A stretch of 64,000 nt of DNA from Chloroflexota bacterium (GCA_029262695.1 JAJCYV010000022.1:113787-177786), one strand, 5' to 3'. Numbered from the stretch's first letter, positions 13,135-27,202 are shown. Notes: generated from the letters alone by a model not told the origin. Made by a program: numbers and translations.

Positions 13135-15929
13135 CGTCCCGCTCCTTCTGCGGCGCCGTTCAGTGGCTCGATGTCCACGCTGACGCCCCTGTCCGTCGGC
13201 ACCGGTTGCCAGTGCCACGGCCGGTACTTGAGATGCCCGTAGCCGCCTGCCAGATGCAGCCACTTGACCATCCCCGGCTCGACCTCTGATTGGCCACGCC
13301 AGGCCTTGTGCTGATACGGCTCGAAGCCGTTGTAGAGGATCACCTGCCCCGGCTTGACGGACGGCGACAGCTTTGCGGCAAGTTCTATCGACGACACGTC
13401 GTTGTGGACTCTCACGGGCGCCCCGTTGCCGATCGCCTTCGCCGCCGCGTCATCCGGATTGATCATCACGAACGGTTCGCCGCGGTGCGTGTTCTGGATG
13501 ATGTTGTTGATCATGTTCATCGAGTGGACGCTCCAGCGCGGGTGACCGCTGGTGAGGAAGAACTCACGCCGCCCACCCTGCCGGGGGTCGTCCTTGTGGC
13601 AGGGCAGCTCCTCGCCGGCCTCCAGGAACCACTCGTGGTCGATGTAGAACTGGGCGCGGCGCGTCAGAGTAGGATACGGCTGCTTCTCCTCGACGTGCCA
13701 GCGGAACGGGCTGTGAGTCTCGTCGGGCTCAAGGGTGGACGCCTGCGCCAGGCCGTGACCGGCGATGCCCCAGCCCTGCCAGCGCATCACGCCCTTTTCG
13801 CGGAACGTCTCCAGGCTGGCGTCCGGCGGGAGGATGCCGTAGACGGCGTCGTCGCGGAACGCCTCGTCAAGGCGCTTCTCCTCCGAGCGAAACGCACCAC
13901 CAAGCGTCATGCGGTCGGCCGCGCCCTCAACGTCTGAGGCCGGGCCGCCGGCCTTGCTGGCGATCTTCGTCTGGCCGCGCGCCTTCGCACGCTCTTCGAG
14001 CTTCTCGGTGAGCATGAGGCCGATCTCGTAGTCGGACCTGGCGTTGCCGGGCGGCTCGATCGCCTTGTCCATGAAGACGGTGTTCAGGTGATGCACGGCG
14101 GGCATACTGATGCCCATCTTCTCGTAGTGCTGCGCCGCCGGCAGGATGTAGTCTGAGTAGAGACCGGTCGTCGTCATCCGGTAGTCGATGGAGACGATCA
14201 TCTTCAGCTTCGGCCACAGGTTCTTCAGGAGCATCTCCTGCCCGCCTCTGTGACGGCGCAGGACGTTGCCGCCGGCTTCGACAAGCACCCGCGGCTCCAC
14301 CTCCTGCCAGACCTTCGCCAGCGTGTGGTCCCACCAGCCCTTGTCCAGCGCCTCCTGGTAGTACTCGTCGAAGGTGCGTTTCATCGAAGGGTCGGACCAT
14401 TCGGGATTGTTCCAGCGCTCCTTGTAACCGAACTGCTCGTACCAGAGGAAGACAGGCGGGAACATGCGCCCCATGGCACCGCCGCGCGAAGAGGCCATCT
14501 CCATCGCGCGGTTGATGATCATCTCCGTGGTTAGCGTGGGGTCGTCGGCGCTGATCATGCGGCGCATCATGATCATCTGCTGCTGGAACGACCGTGCCGC
14601 CTCCTGCCCAGGCGCGCCCTTGGCGGTCAGCAGCGCCGCTCCATCCAGGCCGGAGATACCCCAGGACTGCGTGCCCGCGCCCTGCTTGCCCCAGTTGCCG
14701 GTCAGCGCCAGCAGCAGCGCCATCGAGCGCTCCATGAGGTCGCCGTGGTATGACTTGCCGGTGTTCCAGCCGGCCATGATCTTCGTGCGCCTCGAGGCGA
14801 CTTTGCGCGCCAGTGTGCGTATCGTCTCCGGGTTCACGCCGGAGGTCGCTGACGCGGCCTCTGGTGAGTAGTCGCCGAGGCGCCGGCGCAGCCGCTCGAA
14901 CGCGGGCTCCACATCGACCTCCGTGCCGTCGAGGAGCCGGATCCGGATGCCGCCTTCAAGCGCGGGAGCAACGTCACCGGAGGCGAGCGTACTGCGCGGC
15001 GCAGGGACGGCCTGCCTCGACTTCGAGTCAAGCCAGAAGAACTGGTCTTCGCGTTCGCCCGGGTGGAACTCGTTGCCACGCAGGAAACGTCCCGTGTCTT
15101 TGCGTACGAGCAGCGATAGGTCGGTCTGCTCCCGAACGAAGCGCTCGTCGTAGAGTGTCTCATCGACGATCACACGGCACATCGCCAGCGCCAGCGCGGC
15201 GTCCGTGCCGAACTGCACCGGCACGTGGTAGTCGGCGTGGATCGCCGACGGGCTGTAGTCCGGCGCGATGACGACGACTTCACCGCCGTTGTAGCGGCAC
15301 TCCGGCACGTAGTGATACCACTGAATCGCCGAGTAGACCGGGTTGTTGGCCCAGACGATGATCAGGTCGGCCAGGAACCAGTCGTCTGCGGAGGCGACCG
15401 GGTTGAACTTGCCCCAGGTCATGTAGAAGCCGGGGTTCCAGTCCTGGAACTCGGCGTTTCCGTCCGTCGTCGGCGAGCCGATGGCCGAGGCGAACGACCG
15501 CGCGGCGGCGGCGCCCGGCTCCGGCGTCATCAACGTGATCACCGACTCGGCGCCCTGATCTTCGCAGGCGTCGAGCATCGCGTCGGCGACGTCGGTCAAC
15601 GCCTCATCCCACGAGACCTCTTCGAACTTGCCCTCACCACGCTCGCCGACGCGCTTGAGCGGGCTCGTAACGCGGTCCGGGGCGCTGTGCACGTACCCCC
15701 AGCAGACGCCCTTGTTGCAGCCCATGGGGTTCATGTCGGGAACGCCCGGTTGGACGACGGGAAGAGAACCGGACTGCTCCTCGCGAACGATCTTGCCGTC
15801 ACGCACGTAGACGTGAAGCGGACAGCCGCCGGGGTAGCAATCGACAGCGTGGCTGCCCCAGGTTACCTTGTCCCACTTCCAGCGGTCCCGGTACCGTTCT
15901 TGCCCGCCGTTGCCTTCGCTCGCCGTCAT
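13131..15929 (-). CDS. Molybdopterin oxidoreductase catalytic subunit A1 (type II DMSOR family)
   Basis: Protein of 932 residues. The N-terminal Fe-S (FS0) site reads H27-x3-C31-x4-C36-x34-C71 (SHAVDCYPGGCP ... MNPMGCNKG). The His first ligand marks the type II group (NarG, ethylbenzene dehydrogenase, selenate and chlorate reductases). D163 in FQDWNPGFYMTWG aligns with the Mo-ligating Asp of NarG (DLPPASPQTWG, recalled) by its spacing to TWG. The C-terminal pterin-binding domain is complete. There is no Tat signal, so a cytoplasmic location is expected. It is very similar to A2 and looks like a duplication. No beta subunit is adjacent; instead a TPP enzyme overlaps its stop. A shared operator-like palindrome lies 127 bases upstream. 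Substrate unknown. Confidence 0.92.
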   Translation of the reverse strand: MTASEGNGGQERYRDRWKWDKVTWGSHAVDCYPGGCPLHVYVRDGKIVREEQSGSLPVVQPGVPDMNPMGCNKGVCWGYVHSAPDRVTSPLKRVGERGEGKFEEVSWDEALTDVADAMLDACEDQGAESVITLMTPEPGAAAARSFASAIGSPTTDGNAEFQDWNPGFYMTWGKFNPVASADDWFLADLIIVWANNPVYSAIQWYHYVPECRYNGGEVVVIAPDYSPSAIHADYHVPVQFGTDAALALAMCRVIVDETLYDERFVREQTDLSLLVRKDTGRFLRGNEFHPGEREDQFFWLDSKSRQAVPAPRSTLASGDVAPALEGGIRIRLLDGTEVDVEPAFERLRRRLGDYSPEAASATSGVNPETIRTLARKVASRRTKIMAGWNTGKSYHGDLMERSMALLLALTGNWGKQGAGTQSWGISGLDGAALLTAKGAPGQEAARSFQQQMIMMRRMISADDPTLTTEMIINRAMEMASSRGGAMGRMFPPVFLWYEQFGYKERWNNPEWSDPSMKRTFDEYYQEALDKGWWDHTLAKVWQEVEPRVLVEAGGNVLRRHRGGQEMLLKNLWPKLKMIVSIDYRMTTTGLYSDYILPAAQHYEKMGISMPAVHHLNTVFMDKAIEPPGNARSDYEIGLMLTEKLEERAKARGQTKIASKAGGPASDVEGAADRMTLGGAFRSEEKRLDEAFRDDAVYGILPPDASLETFREKGVMRWQGWGIAGHGLAQASTLEPDETHSPFRWHVEEKQPYPTLTRRAQFYIDHEWFLEAGEELPCHKDDPRQGGRREFFLTSGHPRWSVHSMNMINNIIQNTHRGEPFVMINPDDAAAKAIGNGAPVRVHNDVSSIELAAKLSPSVKPGQVILYNGFEPYQHKAWRGQSEVEPGMVKWLHLAGGYGHLKYRPWHWQPVPTDRGVSVDIEPLNGAAEGAGR

Positions 15930-16595: not shown

Positions 16596-17837
16596 CTAGA
16601 CGTTGTACGAATCGATCACGCGACGAGCCGCGCCCAGCGATAGCACCTCGTTCGTGCCGTCTTCGATCATCGATGCGCGGGCGTCGCGGAAGAGCTTTTC
16701 GATCAGCATGCCCTTGGCCAGGCCCATCCCACCGTGCAGCTGCAGAGCGTCGCTGGACACGTTGAACGCGGCTTCCGTGCAGAACACCTTCGACGCCACG
16801 GAGTACTGCAGGGCCGGCGGCATCGTCTGGGAATTGTAGGACAGCGCCGCGCGGGACAGCTGGCGCGCCGCCTCGACGCTGATGAACATGTCCATCAGCT
16901 TCAACTGGACCGCCTGGTGCTCGCAGATCGCCTTGCCGCCCTGCTTGCGATCGCGCGCATAGGACAACCCCTCTTCGAAGGCTGCGCGCGCGACGCCCGT
17001 GAAGATCGCGCCCATGCCGGCATTGGCGCCCGCCAGCACCGTTTCGATCGTGAACGGGTAGGCTTCGGTCGCCACCAGCATGTAGTCCTTCGGTATGCGC
17101 ACGTCCTCGAGGAATATCTCCCCCTGGTTGAGGGCGCGCTGGCCGAGCTTGTCCAGCGGCTTTCCGCGGGTGACGCCGGGCCCGTCCAGCGGCACGATCG
17201 CGACGGAGCTGCCAGCGGCGCCACGCGACTTATCGACGCCCAGGAACACTAGCGCGTGAGTGGCGATCGTGCCGTTCGACACCCAGGCAGACTTCTGGCC
17301 GTTGAGCACGTACTCATCGCCGTCCTCTTTCGCGAAGAGGTCGAACGCCGTCTCAGGGTTGGTGAAGTGCTCCTCGCTGGTGAGGAGACTGTCGGAGCCG
17401 TGCTGCGGTTCCGTGATCGCCCAGCAACCGATGTAACGGGCCTCCTTGTCTTCCGCGAACGGCTTGACAAGCTCGTCCAGCACCGACGCCCGGCCGCTCA
17501 TTGCGGCGAAGTTGAAGGGGAACGGAGCAACACCGAGCGCGATCGCAAAGTCGGCGCTGGCCCATCCCATCTCTTCCGCGTAGACGTGACCGGCAAGGGG
17601 CGACATGTCGACGCCGCCCAGGGACTCCGGCAGCCCACGCGTGTGAAAGCCGAGTTCGTACGCTTTGCGGAGCACCTCCCAGAGCACCGAGCCGGAGGAG
17701 ATCACTTCCTCCGGAGACAACTGGTCAAGCTCCGCTGCAGCCGGGCGCAAGAATTCGACGCCGAAGCGGTGGATTTGATCCTTTACGTTCGACTCATCGA
17801 ACGTCAGCTCCTTGTTCAGTTCAAGGTAAGTGGTCAT
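16596..17837 (-). CDS. Acyl-CoA dehydrogenase
   Basis: Protein of 413 residues. ATG 17837 follows GGAGGTG with normal spacing. Family features are CWAITEPQHGSDS (FAD and thioester site), EYVLNGQKSAWVSNG, FLEDVRIPKDYML and the C-terminal LQLHGGMGLAKGMLIEKLFRDARASMIEDGTNEV, where the Glu of IEDGTNE is in the usual region of the catalytic base of short-chain enzymes. It desaturates an acyl-CoA and passes electrons to ETF. An operator-like palindrome shared with the molybdoenzyme genes lies 82 bases upstream, inside the 3' end of the preceding gene, which suggests common control with them. Confidence 0.92.
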   Translation of the reverse strand: MTTYLELNKELTFDESNVKDQIHRFGVEFLRPAAAELDQLSPEEVISSGSVLWEVLRKAYELGFHTRGLPESLGGVDMSPLAGHVYAEEMGWASADFAIALGVAPFPFNFAAMSGRASVLDELVKPFAEDKEARYIGCWAITEPQHGSDSLLTSEEHFTNPETAFDLFAKEDGDEYVLNGQKSAWVSNGTIATHALVFLGVDKSRGAAGSSVAIVPLDGPGVTRGKPLDKLGQRALNQGEIFLEDVRIPKDYMLVATEAYPFTIETVLAGANAGMGAIFTGVARAAFEEGLSYARDRKQGGKAICEHQAVQLKLMDMFISVEAARQLSRAALSYNSQTMPPALQYSVASKVFCTEAAFNVSSDALQLHGGMGLAKGMLIEKLFRDARASMIEDGTNEVLSLGAARRVIDSYNV

Positions 17838-17908: not shown

Positions 17909-19021
17909 CTACACTCGTGTGCGGATTTTCCCCACACGCCGCAGGCCGGACGGAAGCCGCGACGCCACCGCCGGGTCGGGCTCGGGCATCCGGATGGCGT
18001 TGTGCGTGTGCCAGTAAAGGACGGGGCCTTCGAGCACGCCCTGTCCCGCCAGGCCGATGACCGCGCTCATCGTCTTCGCTGTGTAAACGGCGTCGAGCTC
18101 CAGATTCTCCAGATCCGCCGCCATCGCCAGAGCTTGTGCGCTGCGCCTGCTCGGCCGGGCATAGCCGGGGCCCAGCCAGTCACTGCTGATGCGCAAGCCG
18201 TCAAGGCCAACGCGCGCTAGCTTTCGATCACCCGCGCGCCCGGCCACGAGCTTCGTCACGTTGCGCGCCAGACGCTTCACGGCAACGGGCCACGCCGTGG
18301 GCGCCCTGGTCACAGCGACACCGATGACCTCGGAATCGAGCCCGGCAAGGCGCAGCCCCGCGAGCAGGCCGGCGACGGTGGCGCCCGTTCCGACGGGGAC
18401 GACGATCGATCGCGGCGCCGGCAACTCGCCGGCGGCCACCTGCGCCGCGAGTTCGAAGCCGGCGTTGACGAACCCGAGCGCACCCATCGAGCTCGACCCA
18501 CCGGGCCCCAGTATGTAGGGCCGGCGCCGGTCGCGAAGCCAGTAGCGCGCGATGAAGTACGGTGCCGCGGCCGCCGTCAGAGCGTGGTTGCGGGTGTAGT
18601 AGATGTCCGCGCCGGCGGCGGCCATGCGCAGGAGCTGCCGGCCGGTGTCCGGCCCGGGCTCCTCGTACGTCAGCAGAAGGCCGACGTGCAGACCGGCCTG
18701 CGCTCCGTAGAGCGCCGTCGCCAGACCGTGGTTGGTGCCGATGGCGCCGGTAGTCAGCACCGTCTTCGACTTCCGGCGCAGGGCATCCGCGAGCACAAAT
18801 TCCAGCTTTCGGGGCTTGTTGCCGCCATAGATGGTCCCGTACAGGCCGTCGTTCTTGAGCCAGACATCGGGCCCGCCCAGCGACTCCGACAGCCGGCCCA
18901 GGCGCGCGACCGGGCTCGGCCCGGCCGCAAGGGGGACGACCGGCGTCCGCGCAGCGAGCCGCGGGAACCGCGCCAGAAGCGGCAGCTGCGCCGGGCTGCG
19001 GGCGGACGCCTCGCCGGTCAT
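17909..19021 (-). CDS. D-cysteine desulfhydrase / ACC deaminase-like PLP enzyme
   Basis: Protein of 370 residues, somewhat longer than the usual 330-340. LKNDGLYGTIYGGNKPRKLEF contains the PLP lysine in the GGNKxRKLEF motif of this family, and TTGAIGTNHGLATALYGAQ matches the SNH/TNH substrate segment. VVPVGTGATVAGLLAGLRL is the phosphate-binding loop. Members release ammonia from 1-aminocyclopropane carboxylate, or sulfide and ammonia from D-cysteine. The start codon overlaps the stop of the NnrS fusion gene by one base (TAATG). Because that protein ends in an Fe-S assembly domain, a sulfide-releasing role is attractive, but the sequence alone cannot decide between substrates. Confidence 0.85.
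   Translation of the reverse strand: MTGEASARSPAQLPLLARFPRLAARTPVVPLAAGPSPVARLGRLSESLGGPDVWLKNDGLYGTIYGGNKPRKLEFVLADALRRKSKTVLTTGAIGTNHGLATALYGAQAGLHVGLLLTYEEPGPDTGRQLLRMAAAGADIYYTRNHALTAAAAPYFIARYWLRDRRRPYILGPGGSSSMGALGFVNAGFELAAQVAAGELPAPRSIVVPVGTGATVAGLLAGLRLAGLDSEVIGVAVTRAPTAWPVAVKRLARNVTKLVAGRAGDRKLARVGLDGLRISSDWLGPGYARPSRRSAQALAMAADLENLELDAVYTAKTMSAVIGLAGQGVLEGPVLYWHTHNAIRMPEPDPAVASRLPSGLRRVGKIRTRV
17919..17935. promoter_or_regulatory. Shared palindromic operator, copy 2 (upstream of acyl-CoA dehydrogenase)
   Basis: It reads GTGGGG-AAAAT-CCGCAC on the minus strand, and the symmetry extends outward to CGTGTG...CACACG with one mismatch over nine base pairs. It is the best copy of the motif. 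It lies 82 bases before ATG 17837 and overlaps the last codons of the PLP desulfhydrase-like gene. Confidence 0.55.
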
Positions 19022-19575
19022 TACCAGCCGAGTGCCTGGTGGGCAGCCGGTGTCATTCTCGACGGCTCCCAGGGGGGCTCCTGGACCAGCTGCACGTCCA
19101 CGTCAGCAAAGCCCAGCGCCCGGACCCGCTCCCGCACGTCGTCCAGTATCTGTCCGGCGAGCGGGCAGTGAGGGGATGTCAGGGCCATGCGCACGGTCGC
19201 ACTCTGGCCGTCCGACTCGACGCCGTACACGAGCCCCAGGTCAACGATGTTCACCGGGATCTCCGGGTCCTGGCAGTCGCGCAGGGCGTTGAGGACGCGC
19301 TGCGCCGGCGGCGTAACCTCGTCACCCTGCCCGTCACCGGCCATGAGCCTCTCCAGGTCGGCGATCAGCCCATCTACGTCGATACCGTGCATCTCGCACG
19401 CCGTGCCCAGCGTGACGCGCGGCGCCATCTGCGCCCGCAACTCCGGATCGGCGAGCGGCTTGAACCCGTATGCGAGCAGCAGCTCCAGGGAGCCGGGGAC
19501 ACGGTCGAGCACGTCCGCAACGGTGTTCTCAGGGCGAATGGCGCCGGACGGTTCTGATTTCGGTCCTGGCTTCAT
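19021..19575 (-). other. Possible internal translation product: DUF1858-DUF59 protein
   Basis: The sequence CCGAAGGAGGAGTCC-ATG on the minus strand is a near-ideal ribosome-binding site and start codon in frame with the NnrS ORF. No stop separates the two parts. Either a fusion occurred while the old start was kept, or both the 704- and 184-residue proteins are produced. Confidence 0.5.
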
Positions 19576-21135
19576 GGACTCCTCCTTCGGCCGGTTCTGC
19601 GCCCGGCGGCGGCGCGATGGGGTCAAAGTACGAGTGATATTGTAGGCAAAGAGAGAGACCGCCAGGAAGGCGATCGCCCCCGATGCGGCGATATGATCGA
19701 AGCGAAACGTAGTGGAGCCGGAAGGGATCACTGCGTGGCCGACGCGCACGATCACGGCGATGTTGATGAGCACCCAGGTGATGCCCAGCAGCCGCTGGCT
19801 GTACAGGCTCCTCCCCGCGAACGCCGGCAACGCGCGGGCGCCAACGCCGAAGATCATCTGCATGAAGAACCCGACGGCCAGGGCGTGGCGGGCGGCGCCC
19901 TGCTCCAGGAAGTCGGGCCGGAAGTCGCCGGCCAGCCCCCTGGACGCGTACCATACCTCGATCGCGAACGCGATGACCAACCAGACGTAGGCGACTCTGA
20001 TCAGGCGCTCGTGGCCGCCCACCGTGACGCCATCATCGGCCCGTACGGCCGCCCGATGAAGGTTCAGCGCGAAGGCGAAGGACAACACCGCCGCCCCCAT
20101 GCCGTAGACCGCGGCCGTATGCAGCCAATCCGGGTTGCTCCAGCCGGTGTAAGCCGCCAGCCAGCCTGAACCGACGCGGGCGAGCAGAGCCGTGTTGAAC
20201 AGCAGAAGCGCCGGCGCCAGGAACTGGACGCGCGGCGGCCTGAGGCTGAGGAAATGCGGTAAAACGCGGACCGACACACCGAGGATGAAGAGGATGACAA
20301 AGCCAAAGACGTACATCTCGAGGAGTGGCGTTCCGCGCGAGGAGGCAGCAGTCGTGACACCGTCGGAGATGACTTCGCCGACCACGACAAGGTTCGCGAC
20401 GGACGCCGCAGCGAACCAGGCGACAGCGGCCAGCAGATAGCGGTCGTAGTTCTTGCGCGGCGTGCTTCTTAGCGTCGACACGACGACGACGACGAAGGCC
20501 AACGCGCCGGCAAGCTCGATCAGCGCCGAAACGACGAATAGCGCGCCGATCGGATCAGAGTCCGCCCACGGCTGCGTCGCCGTCCTTAGCACGACGCCAC
20601 CGGCGAGCAGGCCGATGGATGCGAGAGCCAGGCCCGGATACCTCAGCTCCGTGTTCTTGAAGCGCGGCAGGACGTGATAGGCGATGCCGACGATGAACAC
20701 TCCCACAAACCCGACCAGCTGCAGGTGACCGTGCGCCTGCACGAGTGGCGCCCAGCGAAGGCCGAGCCCGATGTCGCGCCCGCCGCCCAGGGCGACGAGA
20801 ACGGCCAGCGGCAGTCCGCCGACGAGCGCCAGCGCTAGCGATGTGAAGATAGCGAGACGATACGTCTCGAAGGGCTGCTGCGGGCGCTCATCCACCACCG
20901 GCAAGCTAACGGCTTCGGCACGCCTCGCGGCGAACTCGTTGAGGGCGCGCAGGAGCGCCTCCGGGTCCACTCCGTGGGCGCGCGCGAAGGAGGCGATCGG
21001 CTCGCTGGGCCCTTCGGAGCCACCGCAGCCGGCCAGACCGTGCCGCTCGAACACCGCCTCGATACCCGGGTAGGCGAGGACGGCCTCGCGCACCGGCATG
21101 TGATAACCGATCAGGAAGTCCCGCCGCTCAGCCAT
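19021..21135 (-). CDS. DUF1858-NnrS-DUF1858-DUF59 fusion protein
   Basis: Protein of 704 residues made of four parts. Residues 1-70 (YHMPVREAVLAYPGIEAVFERHGLAGCGG) look like a DUF1858/ScdA_N-type helical domain. Residues about 90-510 hold roughly twelve membrane segments with NnrS-like histidine motifs (VQAHGHLQLVGFVGVFIVGIAYHVLPRF, VGFFMQMIFGVGARALPAF); NnrS is a haem- and copper-binding membrane protein tied to nitric oxide stress. Residues about 540-600 form a second DUF1858 domain (TVADVLDRVPGSLELLLAYGFKPL). The end is a DUF59/MIP18-like Fe-S assembly domain (ALRDCQDPEIPVNIVDLGLVYGV ... TSPHCPLAG). An in-frame ATG with a strong AAGGAGG lies at the junction (19575), so the C-terminal 184 residues may also be made separately. 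Confidence 0.85.
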   Translation of the reverse strand: MAERRDFLIGYHMPVREAVLAYPGIEAVFERHGLAGCGGSEGPSEPIASFARAHGVDPEALLRALNEFAARRAEAVSLPVVDERPQQPFETYRLAIFTSLALALVGGLPLAVLVALGGGRDIGLGLRWAPLVQAHGHLQLVGFVGVFIVGIAYHVLPRFKNTELRYPGLALASIGLLAGGVVLRTATQPWADSDPIGALFVVSALIELAGALAFVVVVVSTLRSTPRKNYDRYLLAAVAWFAAASVANLVVVGEVISDGVTTAASSRGTPLLEMYVFGFVILFILGVSVRVLPHFLSLRPPRVQFLAPALLLFNTALLARVGSGWLAAYTGWSNPDWLHTAAVYGMGAAVLSFAFALNLHRAAVRADDGVTVGGHERLIRVAYVWLVIAFAIEVWYASRGLAGDFRPDFLEQGAARHALAVGFFMQMIFGVGARALPAFAGRSLYSQRLLGITWVLINIAVIVRVGHAVIPSGSTTFRFDHIAASGAIAFLAVSLFAYNITRTLTPSRRRRAQNRPKEESMKPGPKSEPSGAIRPENTVADVLDRVPGSLELLLAYGFKPLADPELRAQMAPRVTLGTACEMHGIDVDGLIADLERLMAGDGQGDEVTPPAQRVLNALRDCQDPEIPVNIVDLGLVYGVESDGQSATVRMALTSPHCPLAGQILDDVRERVRALGFADVDVQLVQEPPWEPSRMTPAAHQALGW

Positions 21136-21160
21136 CCGGGGCCGCCCGCGCGGACAAAGG

Positions 21161-21197
21161 AGCGGTCACGGCGGTTGGTGGCACCGCCGTGACCGCT
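21161..21197 (-). terminator. 15-bp perfect stem-loop between beta subunit and NnrS genes
   Basis: AGCGGTCACGGCGGT and its exact reverse complement ACCGCCGTGACCGCT flank a seven-base loop. It lies 19 bases after the beta-subunit stop and 26 bases before the NnrS start, on the same strand. No T run follows. It may terminate, attenuate or protect the molybdoenzyme transcript from the downstream genes. Confidence 0.5.
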
Positions 21198-21215
21198 AGT
21201 GCGGAACGCATTGGT

Positions 21216-22256
21216 CTATTGCCAGGTGATTTCAGCAGGGTCTCGGTCGAACGGACCGAGTGCATCCTTCCACTCGTAGAGGATCAGTGCATCCATCGCC
21301 TCTGAGCTTTCACCGCGGCGCTTCTTCGCGATCTCTTCCTTGATGTTCCCGAGCGCCGTGTGCACGTCCGGGCCAAAGAGCGACTCCAGATATTCAGGCG
21401 GGATTCGGTCACCGGCCTCGTTGATGGAGCCGTCGGCCGCGAGCGGGGCCGGCGCCAGCGGCGGCACGTAGAACACGTTGGGCTTCGTGTTGTATTCGCC
21501 GTGCAGCGGCACCGCCACCTTCCATTCGTTGACGAACTTGTGCACGAGGCTTGTCTCGTCATCGATATAGCCGATGAAGACGGCGCGACCCGGGCACTGG
21601 CGGACGCAGGCCGGCGCCACTCCCTTTTCGATACGGGGGAAGCAGCCGATGCACTGCTGGCTAACGCCGCGCGCCTCGTTGAAGTAGATCTTCTTGTACG
21701 GGCAGGCCGCCGAGCACTGCTGCTGGCCCGTGCAGTCGTCCTCATTGCGCAAGACCAGGCCGAACTCCTCGTCCTTGCGAAGCGCGCCTGTCGGGCAGGC
21801 TTCCAGGCACGGTGCGTCAGTGCAGTGGTTGCAGAGGCGCGGCAGGTAGAAGTAGTAGGCGTTCGGCCAGACGCCGCCGCCTTCGTCCTCGTCCCAGTTC
21901 GGACCCCAGTCCTTGCTGCCGGCAGTCTTCTGCAGGTGCACGTCGCGGCCCTTACCGCCGTGGAGCACCTCATCGTAGTTGTAGTCCCAGCCACCACCGA
22001 ACTCTTCGTTCGTCGGCACCTTGCCCAGCTGGACCTTGCCGTCCTTGTAGCCGCCGCCCATCGTCTCCCAGTCCTTCGGCGTGCCCTTGCCGGGCTTCGT
22101 GTTGACGGTCATCCACCACATGTGCTCTGTGCCCGCCTCTCCCTCTTTCCAGAGGACCTTGCAGGCGACCGAGCAGGTCTGACAACCGATGCACTTGTTG
22201 AGGTCAAAGACCCAGGCCAGTTGCTTGCCCTTTGCTGTCTTTCCGTTGGTCGTCAT
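21216..22256 (-). CDS. Molybdoenzyme beta subunit, four Fe-S clusters (partner of A2)
   Basis: Protein of 346 residues, homologous to the beta subunits of ethylbenzene dehydrogenase and nitrate reductase. Four Cys clusters are seen in order: CIGCQTCSVACK (residues about 22-33), CNHCTDAPCLEACP, CTGQQQCSAACPYKK and CIGCFPRIEKGVAPACVRQCPG. In the third block the second Cys is replaced (CTGQ), as expected for a [3Fe-4S] cluster. Here the replacement is Gln, whereas the other two beta subunits of the window have Tyr. There is no signal peptide. The protein passes electrons between A2 and an unidentified partner. GGAGAG precedes ATG 22256, 24 bases after the A2 stop. Confidence 0.93.
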   Translation of the reverse strand: MTTNGKTAKGKQLAWVFDLNKCIGCQTCSVACKVLWKEGEAGTEHMWWMTVNTKPGKGTPKDWETMGGGYKDGKVQLGKVPTNEEFGGGWDYNYDEVLHGGKGRDVHLQKTAGSKDWGPNWDEDEGGGVWPNAYYFYLPRLCNHCTDAPCLEACPTGALRKDEEFGLVLRNEDDCTGQQQCSAACPYKKIYFNEARGVSQQCIGCFPRIEKGVAPACVRQCPGRAVFIGYIDDETSLVHKFVNEWKVAVPLHGEYNTKPNVFYVPPLAPAPLAADGSINEAGDRIPPEYLESLFGPDVHTALGNIKEEIAKKRRGESSEAMDALILYEWKDALGPFDRDPAEITWQ

Positions 22257-22280: not shown

Positions 22281-25070
22281 CTAGGCGGAGACTTTGTCGA
22301 TTTCCACAGCAACCGCCCTGTCCACGGGGATCGGCTGCCAGTGCCATGGCCGATACGTCAGGTGCCCGTAGCCGCCGGCCATGTGCAGCCACTTCACCAT
22401 GCCGGGCTCAACGTCGCTCTGGGAGAACCATCGCTTGTGCTGGTAGGGCTCGAAGCCGTTGTAGAGGATGACCTGGCCGGGAGACACCGTCGGCGAGAGC
22501 TTCGCCGCGATCTCCATCGTGCCAACTTCGTTGTGCACCGTCACCGGCTCACCGTTTTCGATTCCCTTGGCGGCGGCGTCCTTGTCGTTCATGAAGATGA
22601 ACGGCTCTCCCCGATGCGTGTTCTGAATGACGTTGTTCGTCAGGTTCATCGAGTGAACCGACCAGCGCGGGTGTCCGCTCGTCAGCCGGAACTCACCGTC
22701 GCCACCGTGGTTCGGGTTCTCCTTGTGCACCGGCAGTTCCTCGCCCGCCTCGATGAACCAGTCGTGGTCGATGTAGAACTGAGCGCGACGGGTGAGGGTC
22801 GGATAGGGGACCTTGTCTTCTGTGTGCCAGCGGAACGGGTTGTGGGTCTTGTCCGGCTCGATCGTTGAGGCCTGGGCGATTCCGAATCCGGCGATGCCCC
22901 AGGCCTGTGTGCGCATCGTGCCGATCTCACGGAGCTTCTCCAGGGAGGCTCCCGGCGGAAGGATTCCGTAGGCCGACATGTCCTTGAGCGCCTCGTCGAA
23001 CTCGACCTCCTCGTTCTCGTAGTAGCCGTTGAGCGTCGCCCGGTCGAAAGCGCCCTCGATGACGATCGAGGCCCCGTTCTGGCCCTTCGATTCCTTGATG
23101 CCGCGTTCCCTCGCTCGAGTCTCGATCGCCTTCACGAGCATCTGGCCGATCTCACGGTCAGACTTCGCGTCTCCGGGCGGCTCGACCGCCTTGTCGATGA
23201 AGACGAAGTTGAGGTGGTGCGGCGAAGGCATGCTCTGGCCCAGCTTCTCGTAGTGCTGCGCCGCGGGCAGGATATAGTCGGAGTGGAGGCCGGTCGTGTT
23301 GATGCGAAAGTCGACCGAGACGATCATCTTCAGCTTCGGCCACAGCTCCTTCAAGAGCGTGTTCTGACCGCCGCGGTGGCGCCTCAGGACGTTGCCGCCG
23401 GCCTCAAAGAGCACGCGGGGCTCCGTCTTCTCCCAGGTCTTGGCCATGAACTCGTCCCACCAGCCCTTGTCCATCGCCTCCTGGTAGTACTCGTCGAAGG
23501 TGCGCTTCATCGACTGATCGGACCACTCCTTCTTGTTCCAGCGTTCCTTGTAGCCATACTGGTGGTACCAGAGGAAGGCGGGCGGGATCATCCCTCCCAT
23601 GCCCCCGACGCGGGCGCCCCCCATCTCCTGGAAGCGGTTCAGCACCATCTCCAGCGTCATCGTCGGGTCGTCCTGCGATAGCATGCGCCGCATCGAGATC
23701 ATCTGCTTCTGGAACTCGCGGGCGGCTTCCTGGCCGGGCTTGCCCTTGGCTGACAGGAACGCGAAACCGTCGAAGCCAAAGATCGACCACGAACGCGTAC
23801 CGGTGCCCTGCTTGCCCCAGTTTGCGGTGAGGCCCAGGAGCAGCGCCATCGCTCGCTCCATCAGGTCACCGTGGTAGTACTTGCCAGAGTTCCAGCCGGA
23901 GAAGATCTTCGTGCGCTTCGTCGCCGCCTTGCGGGCGATCATACGGATCGCCTCAGCGTCAATGTTGCAGACCTTGGCCGCCTTCTCCGGTGTGTAGTCT
24001 TCGAGCACCTTAAGCAGGCGCTGGAACACCGGCTGCACTTCCACGTCGGTGCCATCGACAAGCCTGACCTTGAACGTCCCCTCGAGGGCCGGCGAGACGT
24101 CGCCGAGTGCCAGTGTCCCGCGCGGCGCCGGCACTGCCTGCTGTGCCTTGACGTCCCACCAGAAGAACTGGTCGTCGCGGTCGCCCGCGTTAACCTCGGG
24201 GCCGCGCAGGAAGCGGCCGGTGTCAGTACGGACCAGCATCGGCAGGTCGGTCTGTTCATGGACGAACTTCTTGTTGTACAGCTTCTCGTCGATGATCGTC
24301 TTGCACATCGCCAGCGCAAGCGCGGCGTCCGTGCCAATTCGCACCGGGAAGTGATAGTCGGAGTGGATCGACGAGGGACTATAGTCGGGCGCGATGGTAA
24401 TCACTTCGCCGCCGTTGTAGCGGGACTCCAGCGTGAAGTGGAACCACTGGATGTTGGTGTAGACGGGGTTGCAGTGCCAGATTAGCGTCAGCTCCGCGAG
24501 GAACCAGTCGTCCATCGTCGAAACCGGGTTGAACTTGCCCCAGGTGGTGTAGTAACCGGGGCTAAAGTCCTGGAACTCCGCGTTCCCGTCCGTCAGTGGC
24601 GAACCGAGGACGCCGAGGTGACTGCGCGACGGCGCGGCACCTACCTCAGGGGTCATCAGCGTGATGATGGACTCCGGCCCCTGATCCTCACAGGCGTCCA
24701 GCATCGCGTCGGCGATGTCGCCGAGAGCCTCGTCCCAGGAGACCGGTTCGAACTTGCCTTCGCCGCGCTCGCCGACACGCTTCAGAGGAGTCGTTACGCG
24801 GTCGGGGCCCGTGTGCTGGTAGCCCCAGCAAGACCCCTTCTGGCAGCCCATCGGGTTCATGTCTGGAACGCCCTGCTGGATCACTGGCAGCGTGCCACTC
24901 TGCTCTTCCCGGACTATCTTGCCGTCCCGCACGTAGACCCTGAACGGACAGCCGCCGGGATAACAGTCGACAGCGTGGCTTCCCCAGGTAACCTGGTCCC
25001 ACTTCCACTTGTCTCGATAATGCTCGGTCCGTCCCGAGCCGTTCCCGCTGGCGTTCGCACGCGGCGTCAT
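22281..25070 (-). CDS. Molybdopterin oxidoreductase catalytic subunit A2 (type II DMSOR family)
   Basis: Protein of 929 residues, closely similar to A1 along its length; both start YRDxWKWDxVTWGSHAVDCYPGGCP. The FS0 ligands are H32, C36, C41 and C76, and the predicted Mo ligand is D168 in EFQDFSPGYYTTWG. No Tat motif is present, so the enzyme is probably cytoplasmic. Unlike A1 it is followed directly by a beta subunit, and the pair forms a minimal alpha-beta enzyme without a gamma gene. A shared operator-like site lies 103 bases upstream. GGAGG precedes ATG 25070. Substrate unknown; type II relatives hydroxylate hydrocarbons or reduce oxyanions. Confidence 0.93.
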   Translation of the reverse strand: MTPRANASGNGSGRTEHYRDKWKWDQVTWGSHAVDCYPGGCPFRVYVRDGKIVREEQSGTLPVIQQGVPDMNPMGCQKGSCWGYQHTGPDRVTTPLKRVGERGEGKFEPVSWDEALGDIADAMLDACEDQGPESIITLMTPEVGAAPSRSHLGVLGSPLTDGNAEFQDFSPGYYTTWGKFNPVSTMDDWFLAELTLIWHCNPVYTNIQWFHFTLESRYNGGEVITIAPDYSPSSIHSDYHFPVRIGTDAALALAMCKTIIDEKLYNKKFVHEQTDLPMLVRTDTGRFLRGPEVNAGDRDDQFFWWDVKAQQAVPAPRGTLALGDVSPALEGTFKVRLVDGTDVEVQPVFQRLLKVLEDYTPEKAAKVCNIDAEAIRMIARKAATKRTKIFSGWNSGKYYHGDLMERAMALLLGLTANWGKQGTGTRSWSIFGFDGFAFLSAKGKPGQEAAREFQKQMISMRRMLSQDDPTMTLEMVLNRFQEMGGARVGGMGGMIPPAFLWYHQYGYKERWNKKEWSDQSMKRTFDEYYQEAMDKGWWDEFMAKTWEKTEPRVLFEAGGNVLRRHRGGQNTLLKELWPKLKMIVSVDFRINTTGLHSDYILPAAQHYEKLGQSMPSPHHLNFVFIDKAVEPPGDAKSDREIGQMLVKAIETRARERGIKESKGQNGASIVIEGAFDRATLNGYYENEEVEFDEALKDMSAYGILPPGASLEKLREIGTMRTQAWGIAGFGIAQASTIEPDKTHNPFRWHTEDKVPYPTLTRRAQFYIDHDWFIEAGEELPVHKENPNHGGDGEFRLTSGHPRWSVHSMNLTNNVIQNTHRGEPFIFMNDKDAAAKGIENGEPVTVHNEVGTMEIAAKLSPTVSPGQVILYNGFEPYQHKRWFSQSDVEPGMVKWLHMAGGYGHLTYRPWHWQPIPVDRAVAVEIDKVSA

Positions 25071-25268: not shown

Positions 25269-25886
25269 CTACGCCGCGGGCGGAGCAGCTTCGAGCGCGC
25301 GAGCGCGGTCCAGGTCGGCGGGCGTGTTCATGTTGAAGCAGCTCAGGCCTGCCGGGTCGAACCGGGAACAGTGCTCCTCGGACAGATGCAGCACTTGCAG
25401 GCGCACGACGAGTTCGTGCACGGACCGCGCCTCTAACCGGAGGAGCGCCTGAGCCGTCGTCGCCGTCGAGCGCGCATAGACGGCGTGCAGGTACTGACTG
25501 ACCCCCTGCGAGATCGGCACAACGGCATCGAACGTCTCCAGGCAGTCGACGAGGTGGCTCAGTAAGGCCGGATTCAGGAAGGGCATGTCGCACGCCACGA
25601 TCAGGCAGGCATCGTGGCGTGCCGCCTGCAGGCCGGCCGTGACGCCGGCGAGCGGCCCAGTCGAGCCGGGCGGGTCGGAAACCCGGCGCACCTCGGGGCC
25701 GAAGCCGTCGGCGAGGCTCTGTTCACCACCGGCGATGATGACTTCCGGGCAGACGAGCGAGACCGTCTGGACGGCGCGCGACAGCAGGGTCTGCTCCGAC
25801 AAGCGAAGGTTGGCCTTGTCATTGCCCATGCGCACGCTGCCCCCGCCGGCCAGGATGATACCGGTCGCCTGGCGCCGATCGCTCAA
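25269..25886 (-). CDS. mobA: Molybdenum cofactor guanylyltransferase MobA
   Basis: Protein of 205 residues. It attaches GMP to Mo-molybdopterin, giving the bis-MGD cofactor used by the DMSO-reductase family. The N-terminal nucleotide-binding motif GIILAGGGSVRMGNDKANLRL is characteristic of MobA (LAGGxSxRMGxDKAxL), and IVACDMPFLNP contains the metal-binding Asp. The C-terminal FNMNTPADLDRA is also typical. The start codon overlaps the mobB stop by four bases. Its position between A2 and the two-component system fits supply of cofactor to the molybdoenzymes of this island. Confidence 0.95.
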   Translation of the reverse strand: MSDRRQATGIILAGGGSVRMGNDKANLRLSEQTLLSRAVQTVSLVCPEVIIAGGEQSLADGFGPEVRRVSDPPGSTGPLAGVTAGLQAARHDACLIVACDMPFLNPALLSHLVDCLETFDAVVPISQGVSQYLHAVYARSTATTAQALLRLEARSVHELVVRLQVLHLSEEHCSRFDPAGLSCFNMNTPADLDRARALEAAPPAA

Positions 25887-26410
25887 AGGTCCAACCTCCG
25901 GGGAAGCCCCTGCGTCGAAGGCAGCAGCGAAAACCGCTCCTCCAGGAAGGCCGCCACGCCGGCGGCGTCTTCCAGGTCGAACTGCGGCACCTGGTAATCG
26001 AAGGCGGCGTCCGTGACGATCGCCAGAAGATCATCAAGCCTCCCTGTGATTTCGTGGCTGTGCGCTGAGCGAGAGACCTCGATCTTCATAGCGGAGGCGC
26101 CACGATATCCCTCAGTGAGAACGACATCGACGCGGTCGTCCACCATCGCGACCAGCCCCTCCAGATTGCGCTCCGCGTCCGGGATCTCGATCAGCGCGAG
26201 CTTGTCCGCCGACGAGAGCAGGACGATATCGCTGCCGGCCCTGGTCAGCCGCCAGGAGTCTTTGCCCGGGTAGTCAACCTCGAACTCATGCACGTCGTGC
26301 TTGATCGCCGCCACGCGGTAGCCACGCGCCTTGAGAACGCCTATGAGCTTCTCGAGGAACGTGGTCTTGCCGACGCCGGAGTTACCGACGAAGCTGATTA
26401 CCGGTATCAT
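25883..26410 (-). CDS. mobB: Molybdopterin-guanine dinucleotide biosynthesis adapter MobB
   Basis: Protein of 175 residues. It is a GTP-binding P-loop protein that assists MobA. Walker A is GNSGVGKTTFLEKL, followed by RVAAIKHDVHEFEVDYPGKDSWRLTRAGSD, the KHxxHxFexDxxGKDS region specific to MobB, and DVVLTEGYRG. Two adjacent ATG codons are possible (26413 and 26410); the second has better spacing from AGGAG. It overlaps mobA by four bases. A palindromic TGTACAGTACA and a hairpin lie upstream. Confidence 0.93.
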   Translation of the reverse strand: MIPVISFVGNSGVGKTTFLEKLIGVLKARGYRVAAIKHDVHEFEVDYPGKDSWRLTRAGSDIVLLSSADKLALIEIPDAERNLEGLVAMVDDRVDVVLTEGYRGASAMKIEVSRSAHSHEITGRLDDLLAIVTDAAFDYQVPQFDLEDAAGVAAFLEERFSLLPSTQGLPRRLDL

Positions 26411-26450
26411 CATCTCTCCTGCGAGCCAGTCACCTGCTTTGATCCTTGCG

Positions 26451-26530: not shown

Positions 26531-27202
26531 CTATTCACCAGGCACCAGATAGCCACGCTTGAGAGCATACTGGATGAGTTCGGAGCGGTGGTGCAAGTTT
26601 AGCTTCTCCATAATGCGCTGCCGGTAAGTATCGACCGTCTTGGGGCTGATCACGAGCTGCTCCGCGATCTCGTTGTTTGTAAAGCCTTCGGCGGTCGCCT
26701 TCAGCACTTCGCGCTCGCGGTTCGTAAGCGGGTCCTTGTCGTCCGTGTCTCTCGATTCTCCACGGAGGTACTCCCCCAGGAGCTTCTTGATCGCCGACGG
26801 GTAGAGGAACACATCACCCCGGTTCGCCGTGCGAATGGCTTCGATAAGCTCGCGGTCGGCAGAGCTCTTGTGCACGTAGCCGGAGGCGCCCGCCTTCAGT
26901 GTCTGGAACAGATACTCCTCGTCGGCGTGCACCGTTAGCATCACGATCCTGGACTTCAATCCCAGGTTATGGATCTCCTCCGCAGCCTTCAGTCCGTCCA
27001 TCTCCGGCATCGAAACGTCCATGACGATGATGTCCGGGCGCAACGTCTCCGCCAGCTTCACCGCCTCAATCCCGTTCGAGGCCTCCCCTACGACATCAAA
27101 GTCCGGCTCCAGGTTCAGGAGCGCGCGCAGGCCCGAACGCAGCACCTGGTGATCATCCACAAGGAGGATTTGTACCTTCGCGTCCGCTTTCGTCTGACTC
27201 AT
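26531..27202 (-). CDS. NarL/LuxR-family response regulator
   Basis: Protein of 223 residues. The receiver domain (about 10-125) has the acidic pair LLVDDHQ, the phosphorylated Asp in DIIVMDVSMPEMDG and the Lys in GYVHKSS. The C-terminal LuxR helix-turn-helix reads LTNREREVLKATAEGFTNNEIAEQLVISPKTVDTYRQRIMEKL. The start overlaps the histidine kinase stop by four bases, so the two are a cognate pair. Members of this family often control respiration by nitrogen oxides or other acceptors. Located next to mobAB and the molybdoenzymes, it is the leading candidate for their regulator, though the shared palindrome does not resemble a classical NarL heptamer. Confidence 0.93.
   Translation of the reverse strand: MSQTKADAKVQILLVDDHQVLRSGLRALLNLEPDFDVVGEASNGIEAVKLAETLRPDIIVMDVSMPEMDGLKAAEEIHNLGLKSRIVMLTVHADEEYLFQTLKAGASGYVHKSSADRELIEAIRTANRGDVFLYPSAIKKLLGEYLRGESRDTDDKDPLTNREREVLKATAEGFTNNEIAEQLVISPKTVDTYRQRIMEKLNLHHRSELIQYALKRGYLVPGE

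Follow-up and report, generated by a model that had tools for sequence, protein, structure and literature searches.

A recurrent DUF1858-NnrS-DUF1858-DUF59 fusion in Chloroflexota and its possible role in protecting iron-sulfur clusters

Why would a membrane protein associated with nitric oxide (NO) carry an iron-sulfur (Fe-S) assembly domain on the same polypeptide? The question is raised by an open reading frame at 19021-21135, minus strand, in a 64,000-nucleotide stretch of Chloroflexota bacterium GCA_029262695.1 (JAJCYV010000022.1:113787-177786; hereafter the window, to which all positions refer unless another locus is named). The original prediction, made from this DNA alone, described the frame as a four-part fusion of DUF1858, NnrS, a second DUF1858, and DUF59. 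It added a retained internal start and grouped the fusion with the adjacent pyridoxal phosphate (PLP) enzyme as an Fe-S repair module for NO damage. We confirm the fusion, and find that it recurs in related genomes and probably acts in a setting of nitrogen-oxide respiration as one membrane protein.

The frame runs from ATG to TAA over 704 codons with no internal stop. Pfam matches above the curated cut-offs place NnrS (PF05940) at residues 97-506 (61.9 bits against 28) and DUF59 (FeS_assembly_P, PF01883) at residues 612-676 (60 bits against 23.5), while DUF1858 (73.3 bits against 32.2) matches two stretches, the better one at 533-591. The fusion also scores above the cut-off of the hybrid-cluster-associated DUF1858 family TIGR03980 (49.3 against 44.95), and its DUF59 part has the conserved DPE and cysteine motifs, with C657 present in all six fused proteins. 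That an assembly or sequencing error merged two genes is hardly credible. Relatives do own separate DUF59 genes, but the identical join is found in five independent assemblies, and none of the relatives with separate genes splits at residue 521. The third-position G+C content (0.73-0.98 along the frame) stays coding-like over the junctions and gives no indication of a frame change. Because five other Chloroflexota genomes have the same four-part order, an assembly frameshift is ruled out and the in-frame fusion is genuine, as had been claimed.

A survey of related genomes, which the original prediction had called for, found the four-part form in at least six Chloroflexota genomes, the source included. 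Five such frames lie among 393 genomes of the class (G000, G164, G247, G193, and G046), and the sixth (L117) belongs to another Chloroflexota class; the loci in genomes other than the source are L062, L063, L064, L067, and L117. Relatives were gathered with an alignment query, as a query with the single protein returned none. A three-part DUF1858-NnrS-DUF1858 form occupies about 45 loci in Acidobacteriota (including the cultured Pyrinomonas methylaliphatogenes), Planctomycetota, Armatimonadota, and others. Judged by these sequences, two of the three fusion junctions are ordinary, being those of the family's common form, and the fusion is a Chloroflexota elaboration of this widespread three-part family.

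The third junction has its counterpart in pairs of separate genes. At L070, L083, L080, and L093, a DUF59 gene lies directly 3' of a three-part gene, with a 4-bp overlap at L070 and L083, and in HRbin24 (G020) it follows about 0.8 kb downstream. The first four of these loci hold the same domains as the fusion, but as two genes whose boundary is the DUF1858/DUF59 border, at residue ~605 and ~250 bp downstream of the proposed internal ATG at 19575. In a tree of NnrS, all fused and DUF59-adjacent forms fall within one mainly Chloroflexota group of 17 rows (SH-aLRT 93). In a tree of DUF59 (25 rows, 109 columns, weak support), the adjacent genes sit on two branches outside the fused set, and a single origin of that set is not rejected (p-AU 0.30 on the 25-row tree). 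This pattern suggests that DUF59 may have been drawn in from about three lineages. Other joinings of these domains were also seen. At L083:5219-5710 and L070:2356-2793, a ScdA_N-like domain with CCGG is fused to DUF2249 immediately 3' of the separate DUF59 gene, and L122-L140 (Nitrospinota and others) are proteins of ~300-335 aa with an NnrS/COX1-like part the size of four helices followed by two DUF1858 domains.

An AlphaFold2 model of the fusion, built with 55 sequences, has 12 long helices, a mean predicted local distance difference test (pLDDT) score of 88.5, and a predicted TM-score of 0.77. Its top Foldseek match is CcoN, subunit I of cbb3 oxidase (TM-score by target 0.74). NO reductase is one of the matches that follow, and the DUF59 part superposes on 3lno at ~1.2 Å. 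H135 in transmembrane (TM) helix TM2 and H417 in TM10 are invariant in the 55 sequences, as are, in the N-terminal domain, C37 and H54. By prediction, then, the core has the 12 TM helices, haem-copper-oxidase-like fold, and conserved histidines of NnrS. Both histidines lie in helices that would correspond to those where oxidases hold their low-spin haem, and the core may bind haem and perhaps copper. A count of positive-inside residues places both termini in the cytoplasm.

The fusion resembles several known systems without coinciding with any of them. It shares with NnrS of V. cholerae and R. sphaeroides the 12-TM core above the Pfam cut-off and, in relatives, a denitrification or NO-regulon setting, but its score is modest (62 bits) and it adds two DUF1858 domains and DUF59. 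With SufT and other DUF59 proteins (PF01883, TIGR02945, TIGR03406) it has in common DPEIPVNIVDLGLVY, the TSPxCP cysteine, and the close fit to 3lno over the domain. In contrast to these, its DUF59 is neither free-standing nor in a suf operon, and it stays below both SufT equivalog cut-offs (84.9 against 143.4 for TIGR02945; 83 against 202.6 for TIGR03406). The N-terminal domain has the C-G-G and conserved histidine of the ScdA/YtfE/RIC N-terminal and hybrid-cluster DUF1858 domains (PF04405, TIGR03980), and the ScdA structure 9r7j is among its weak sequence matches. The fusion nevertheless falls outside RIC/ScdA/YtfE, since the ScdA_N match at residues 14-67 is below its cut-off (27.3 against 32.5), C37 is a single cysteine (GCGG in place of CCGG), and there is no hemerythrin match. 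Another in-frame joining of nitrate-respiration domains, DUF2249-DUF1858-NnrS at L081:7719-9584, has DUF2249 in front and neither the second DUF1858 nor DUF59. Our literature search found no published description of the four-part architecture, and the one paper found to name both DUF1858 and NnrS treats them as separate genes (PMC6710368). This real and recurrent domain combination is thus an apparently undescribed variant of NnrS.

The genes around the relatives point to a physiological setting. We surveyed 6 kb around 53 loci with the DUF1858-NnrS-DUF1858 core, with 20 stretches as controls. DUF2249 was found at 18 loci, Crp/Fnr at 16, NarG or a type II alpha subunit at 14, hemerythrin at 7, and qNor at 6; the controls had none of these, except for NarG/type II alpha in 2 of 20. 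Curated cut-offs are passed by NarG at L088 and NarH at L117, and L088 also encodes RIC, the iron-centre repair protein (242 bits against 204.7). Because of these neighbors (Crp/Fnr, DUF2249, hemerythrin, qNor, NarGH, and one RIC), we assign the family to nitrate and NO respiration. Published work agrees in two instances: a DUF1858 gene located next to nnrR depends strongly on NnrR (PMC6710368), and a nar operon includes an Fe-S carrier P-loop NTPase with DUF2249 (PMC11218638). At L117, the Crp/Fnr neighbor of the fusion has an extra N-terminal helix-turn-helix.

We consider it moderately probable that the fusion, as a single full-length membrane protein, is an NnrS-type guard of cytoplasmic iron and Fe-S pools that carries its own Fe-S delivery domain, and that it limits nitrosative damage. 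NnrS does not remove NO but prevents the formation of dinitrosyl-iron complexes in the iron pool (PMC9246220), and SufT, a solo DUF59 protein, is reported to take part in Fe-S maturation under high demand (PMC4982691). Shielding or re-supply of Fe-S clusters at the membrane would follow from joining these two roles in one protein. At the membrane, the oxidase-like core would handle NO or electrons; the DUF1858 and DUF59 tails would help to re-supply or protect the Fe-S clusters of nearby enzymes, with the neighboring Fe-S-rich reductases as likely clients. The architecture, its recurrence, the predicted fold and topology, and the gene neighborhood are established here, whereas we infer haem binding, which way Fe-S moves, which enzyme is served, and that the full-length product is the only one. 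The repair module for NO damage that had been proposed thus stands in part: its nitrogen-oxide and Fe-S associations are seen in relatives, and the PLP enzyme drops out of it, as described below.

Several observations weigh against this reading. The controls of the neighbor survey all come from the source genome only. That genome has no DUF2249, no NirK above the cut-off, and no NorB that we could find, and one COX1 (546 bits) was found in it. A local NO source is therefore not evident there, and the NO setting is tentatively taken from the family. A congener, G001, has two copies of the fusion gene that are 85% identical in DNA over their shared start. One copy (contig C111, locus L027) keeps NnrS without the second DUF1858 and DUF59: it matches the window at 84% up to ~19590, then continues into a short unrelated tail and fragments of the 3' end of the acyl-CoA dehydrogenase (ACAD) gene. 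A deletion scar at ~14040-14230 of that locus marks where the DUF1858-DUF59 tail of the fusion was lost together with the PLP gene and the greater part of ACAD, so this tail is dispensable at least there. The other copy, on contig C29, stands directly after MobA and leaves the contig at residue 116. No alpha or beta gene lies between MobA and this copy, and no type II alpha was found in that metagenome-assembled genome (84% complete).

Could the frame yield two products, the full-length protein and a soluble 184-aa DUF1858-DUF59 protein begun at ATG 19575? The predicted site exists: a strong Shine-Dalgarno (SD) sequence, AAGGAGG, stands 5 nt from the in-frame ATG, inside a linker of low model confidence (pLDDT < 50 at 516-522 and 524-528), and the SD before the main start, at 21135, is weak. 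Such sites are rare. Among 371 called genes in 464 kb of the source genome, AAGGAGG precedes 3 of 1,997 internal ATGs (in 3 genes), and it stands at the called start of 8 genes. On the other hand, K-E-E codons in a charged juxtamembrane linker spell out the SD, none of the five other four-part fusions has a comparable SD and ATG at this junction, and the G001 copy has neither at the corresponding place. A search of 400 Chloroflexota genomes also gave no free-standing DUF1858-DUF59 protein; its one candidate, in G435, proved to be a long SufT encoded within a suf operon, with no DUF1858 match. We found neither of the marks of a dual-product gene, namely a conserved SD and start at the domain border or a free-standing short homologue. 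Because the site is absent from the other fusions, the split relatives break at residue ~605 rather than 521, and no short form was found in those genomes, the start cannot be called retained, and an ancestral origin is rejected. A lineage-specific internal start is a minor possibility, and synthesis of two products is unlikely.

The gene that follows the fusion encodes the PLP enzyme. The predicted one-base overlap is confirmed at 19021, where TAATG suggests translational coupling, and the enzyme's superfamily match includes D-cysteine desulfhydrase. A repair module in which this enzyme supplies sulfide to the fusion is nonetheless very improbable. The PLP gene lies near the fusion in only 1 of the 53 loci, the source locus itself. 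The enzyme scores below the D-cysteine desulfhydrase family TIGR01275 (162 against 289.4) and reads GTNH where solved enzymes have QSNH. D-cysteine desulfhydrases are also distinct from the desulfurases of the SufS/IscS type that serve Fe-S assembly. In G009, from the same family, the gene order is the same but no fusion is present: the genes for a response regulator and a kinase are followed by MobB, alpha (78%), beta (82%), the PLP enzyme (55%), and ACAD (75%), so that PLP directly follows beta and precedes ACAD; in G015 and G021, the PLP gene is located elsewhere. On synteny, we reject the PLP enzyme as a fusion partner and, because G009 keeps the operon order without the fusion, the gene probably belongs to the alpha-beta operon. 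The same comparison suggests that the fusion entered a type II molybdoenzyme operon, unless G009 has lost it.

This placement invites another explanation, in which the fusion serves the adjacent cytoplasmic type II molybdoenzyme as its membrane anchor or quinone-linked electron subunit and replaces a missing haem b gamma. The fusion is directly downstream of alpha-beta with no gamma gene between them, its NnrS core has an oxidase-like fold, and at L062, L063, and L064 the four-part fusion has next to it a type II alpha that shares ~50% identity with the local one. We regard this role as improbable, since the alpha-beta operon occurs in G009 with no fusion in it, no type II alpha was found in G001, which does have the fusion, and NarG, qNor, or other genes flank most relatives. 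At L062 and L063, moreover, the alpha gene lies on the other strand, accompanied by a MobB and a chaperone of its own. Here, a strong hairpin separates beta from the fusion. This long, near-perfect hairpin may be an attenuator or a terminator, is not among the results of a scan for T-tailed terminators, and fills the gap, so that beta and fusion may or may not be co-transcribed. Promoter and terminator consensus scans scored no higher than shuffled sequence. A more specific form of the Fe-S reading, doubtful but possible, is a membrane-tethered delivery factor in which NnrS acts as a sensor or scavenger of NO, or as a conduit for electrons, and the DUF1858-DUF59 arm reloads the clusters of adjacent NarG-family or type II molybdoenzymes. 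If true, it would couple nitrosative damage to cluster repair within one polypeptide.

The alpha and beta neighbors fall below the dimethyl sulfoxide (DMSO) reductase type II cut-offs (alpha, 852 against 984.75 for TIGR03479; beta, 448 against 480.7 for TIGR03478) and are related to this type but outside its curated core. Upstream, the histidine kinase has an ArsR-like helix-turn-helix where a sensor domain would be. The 30 kb at 13131-42464 encode five type II (ethylbenzene-dehydrogenase-like) alpha subunits alongside three beta subunits, two delta, and one gamma; all eight type II alpha copies of the source genome are on contig C22. A second ACAD (L193:6822-11054; C22, ~106.8-111 kb), 67% to the one at 16596-17837, adjoins another type II alpha in divergent orientation, making ACAD and type II alpha a recurring pair in this genome. 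Table 1 collects the features of the locus.

Table 1. Features at the fusion locus, in window positions. Domain borders, in residues, are from profiles built in this analysis.
Feature	Position	Strand	Remarks
Fusion open reading frame, DUF1858/ScdA_N-like - NnrS - DUF1858 - DUF59	19021..21135	-	704 aa; recurs in relatives
N-terminal DUF1858, hybrid-cluster/ScdA_N-like, residues 8-68	20932..21114	-	invariant C37-G-G, H54
NnrS core, residues 88-508, 12 TM helices	19612..20874	-	invariant H135 (TM2), H417 (TM10), R290, R416, R464
Second DUF1858, residues 534-600	19336..19536	-	profile match
DUF59/FeS_assembly_P, residues 605-704	19024..19323	-	DPEIPVNIVDLGLVY and C657 (TSPHCP)
SD AAGGAGG (19581-19587), 5-nt spacing, in-frame ATG 19573-19575 (M521)	19573..19587	-	not conserved
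TAATG, fusion stop / PLP start	19019..19023	-	one-base overlap at 19021
PLP enzyme, ACC-deaminase / D-cysteine-desulfhydrase / CuyA superfamily	17909..19021	-	370 aa; not conserved with fusion
ACAD	16596..17837	-	with alpha-beta-PLP operon in G009
Beta-fusion gap, strong hairpin GCGGTCACGGCGGTGCCACCAACCGCCGTGACCGC	21136..21215	-	region z -3.4
DMSO-reductase-family type II beta subunit (4Fe-4S)	21216..22256	-	profile match
Type II molybdopterin alpha subunit	22281..25070	-	929 aa; twin-arginine (Tat) signal not seen
MobA, molybdenum cofactor dinucleotide gene	25269..25886	-	profile match
MobB, molybdenum cofactor dinucleotide gene	25883..26413	-	profile match
LuxR-type response regulator	26531..27202	-	beside the histidine kinase gene
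Histidine kinase, N-terminal ArsR-like helix-turn-helix	27199..28374	-	helix-turn-helix replaces a sensor domain

For the little-understood protective action of NnrS, a fusion or adjacency of NnrS and DUF59 that recurs, with DUF59 possibly from about three lineages, points to Fe-S maturation as a partner process, and this link is directly testable, with separate-gene versions on hand for comparison.

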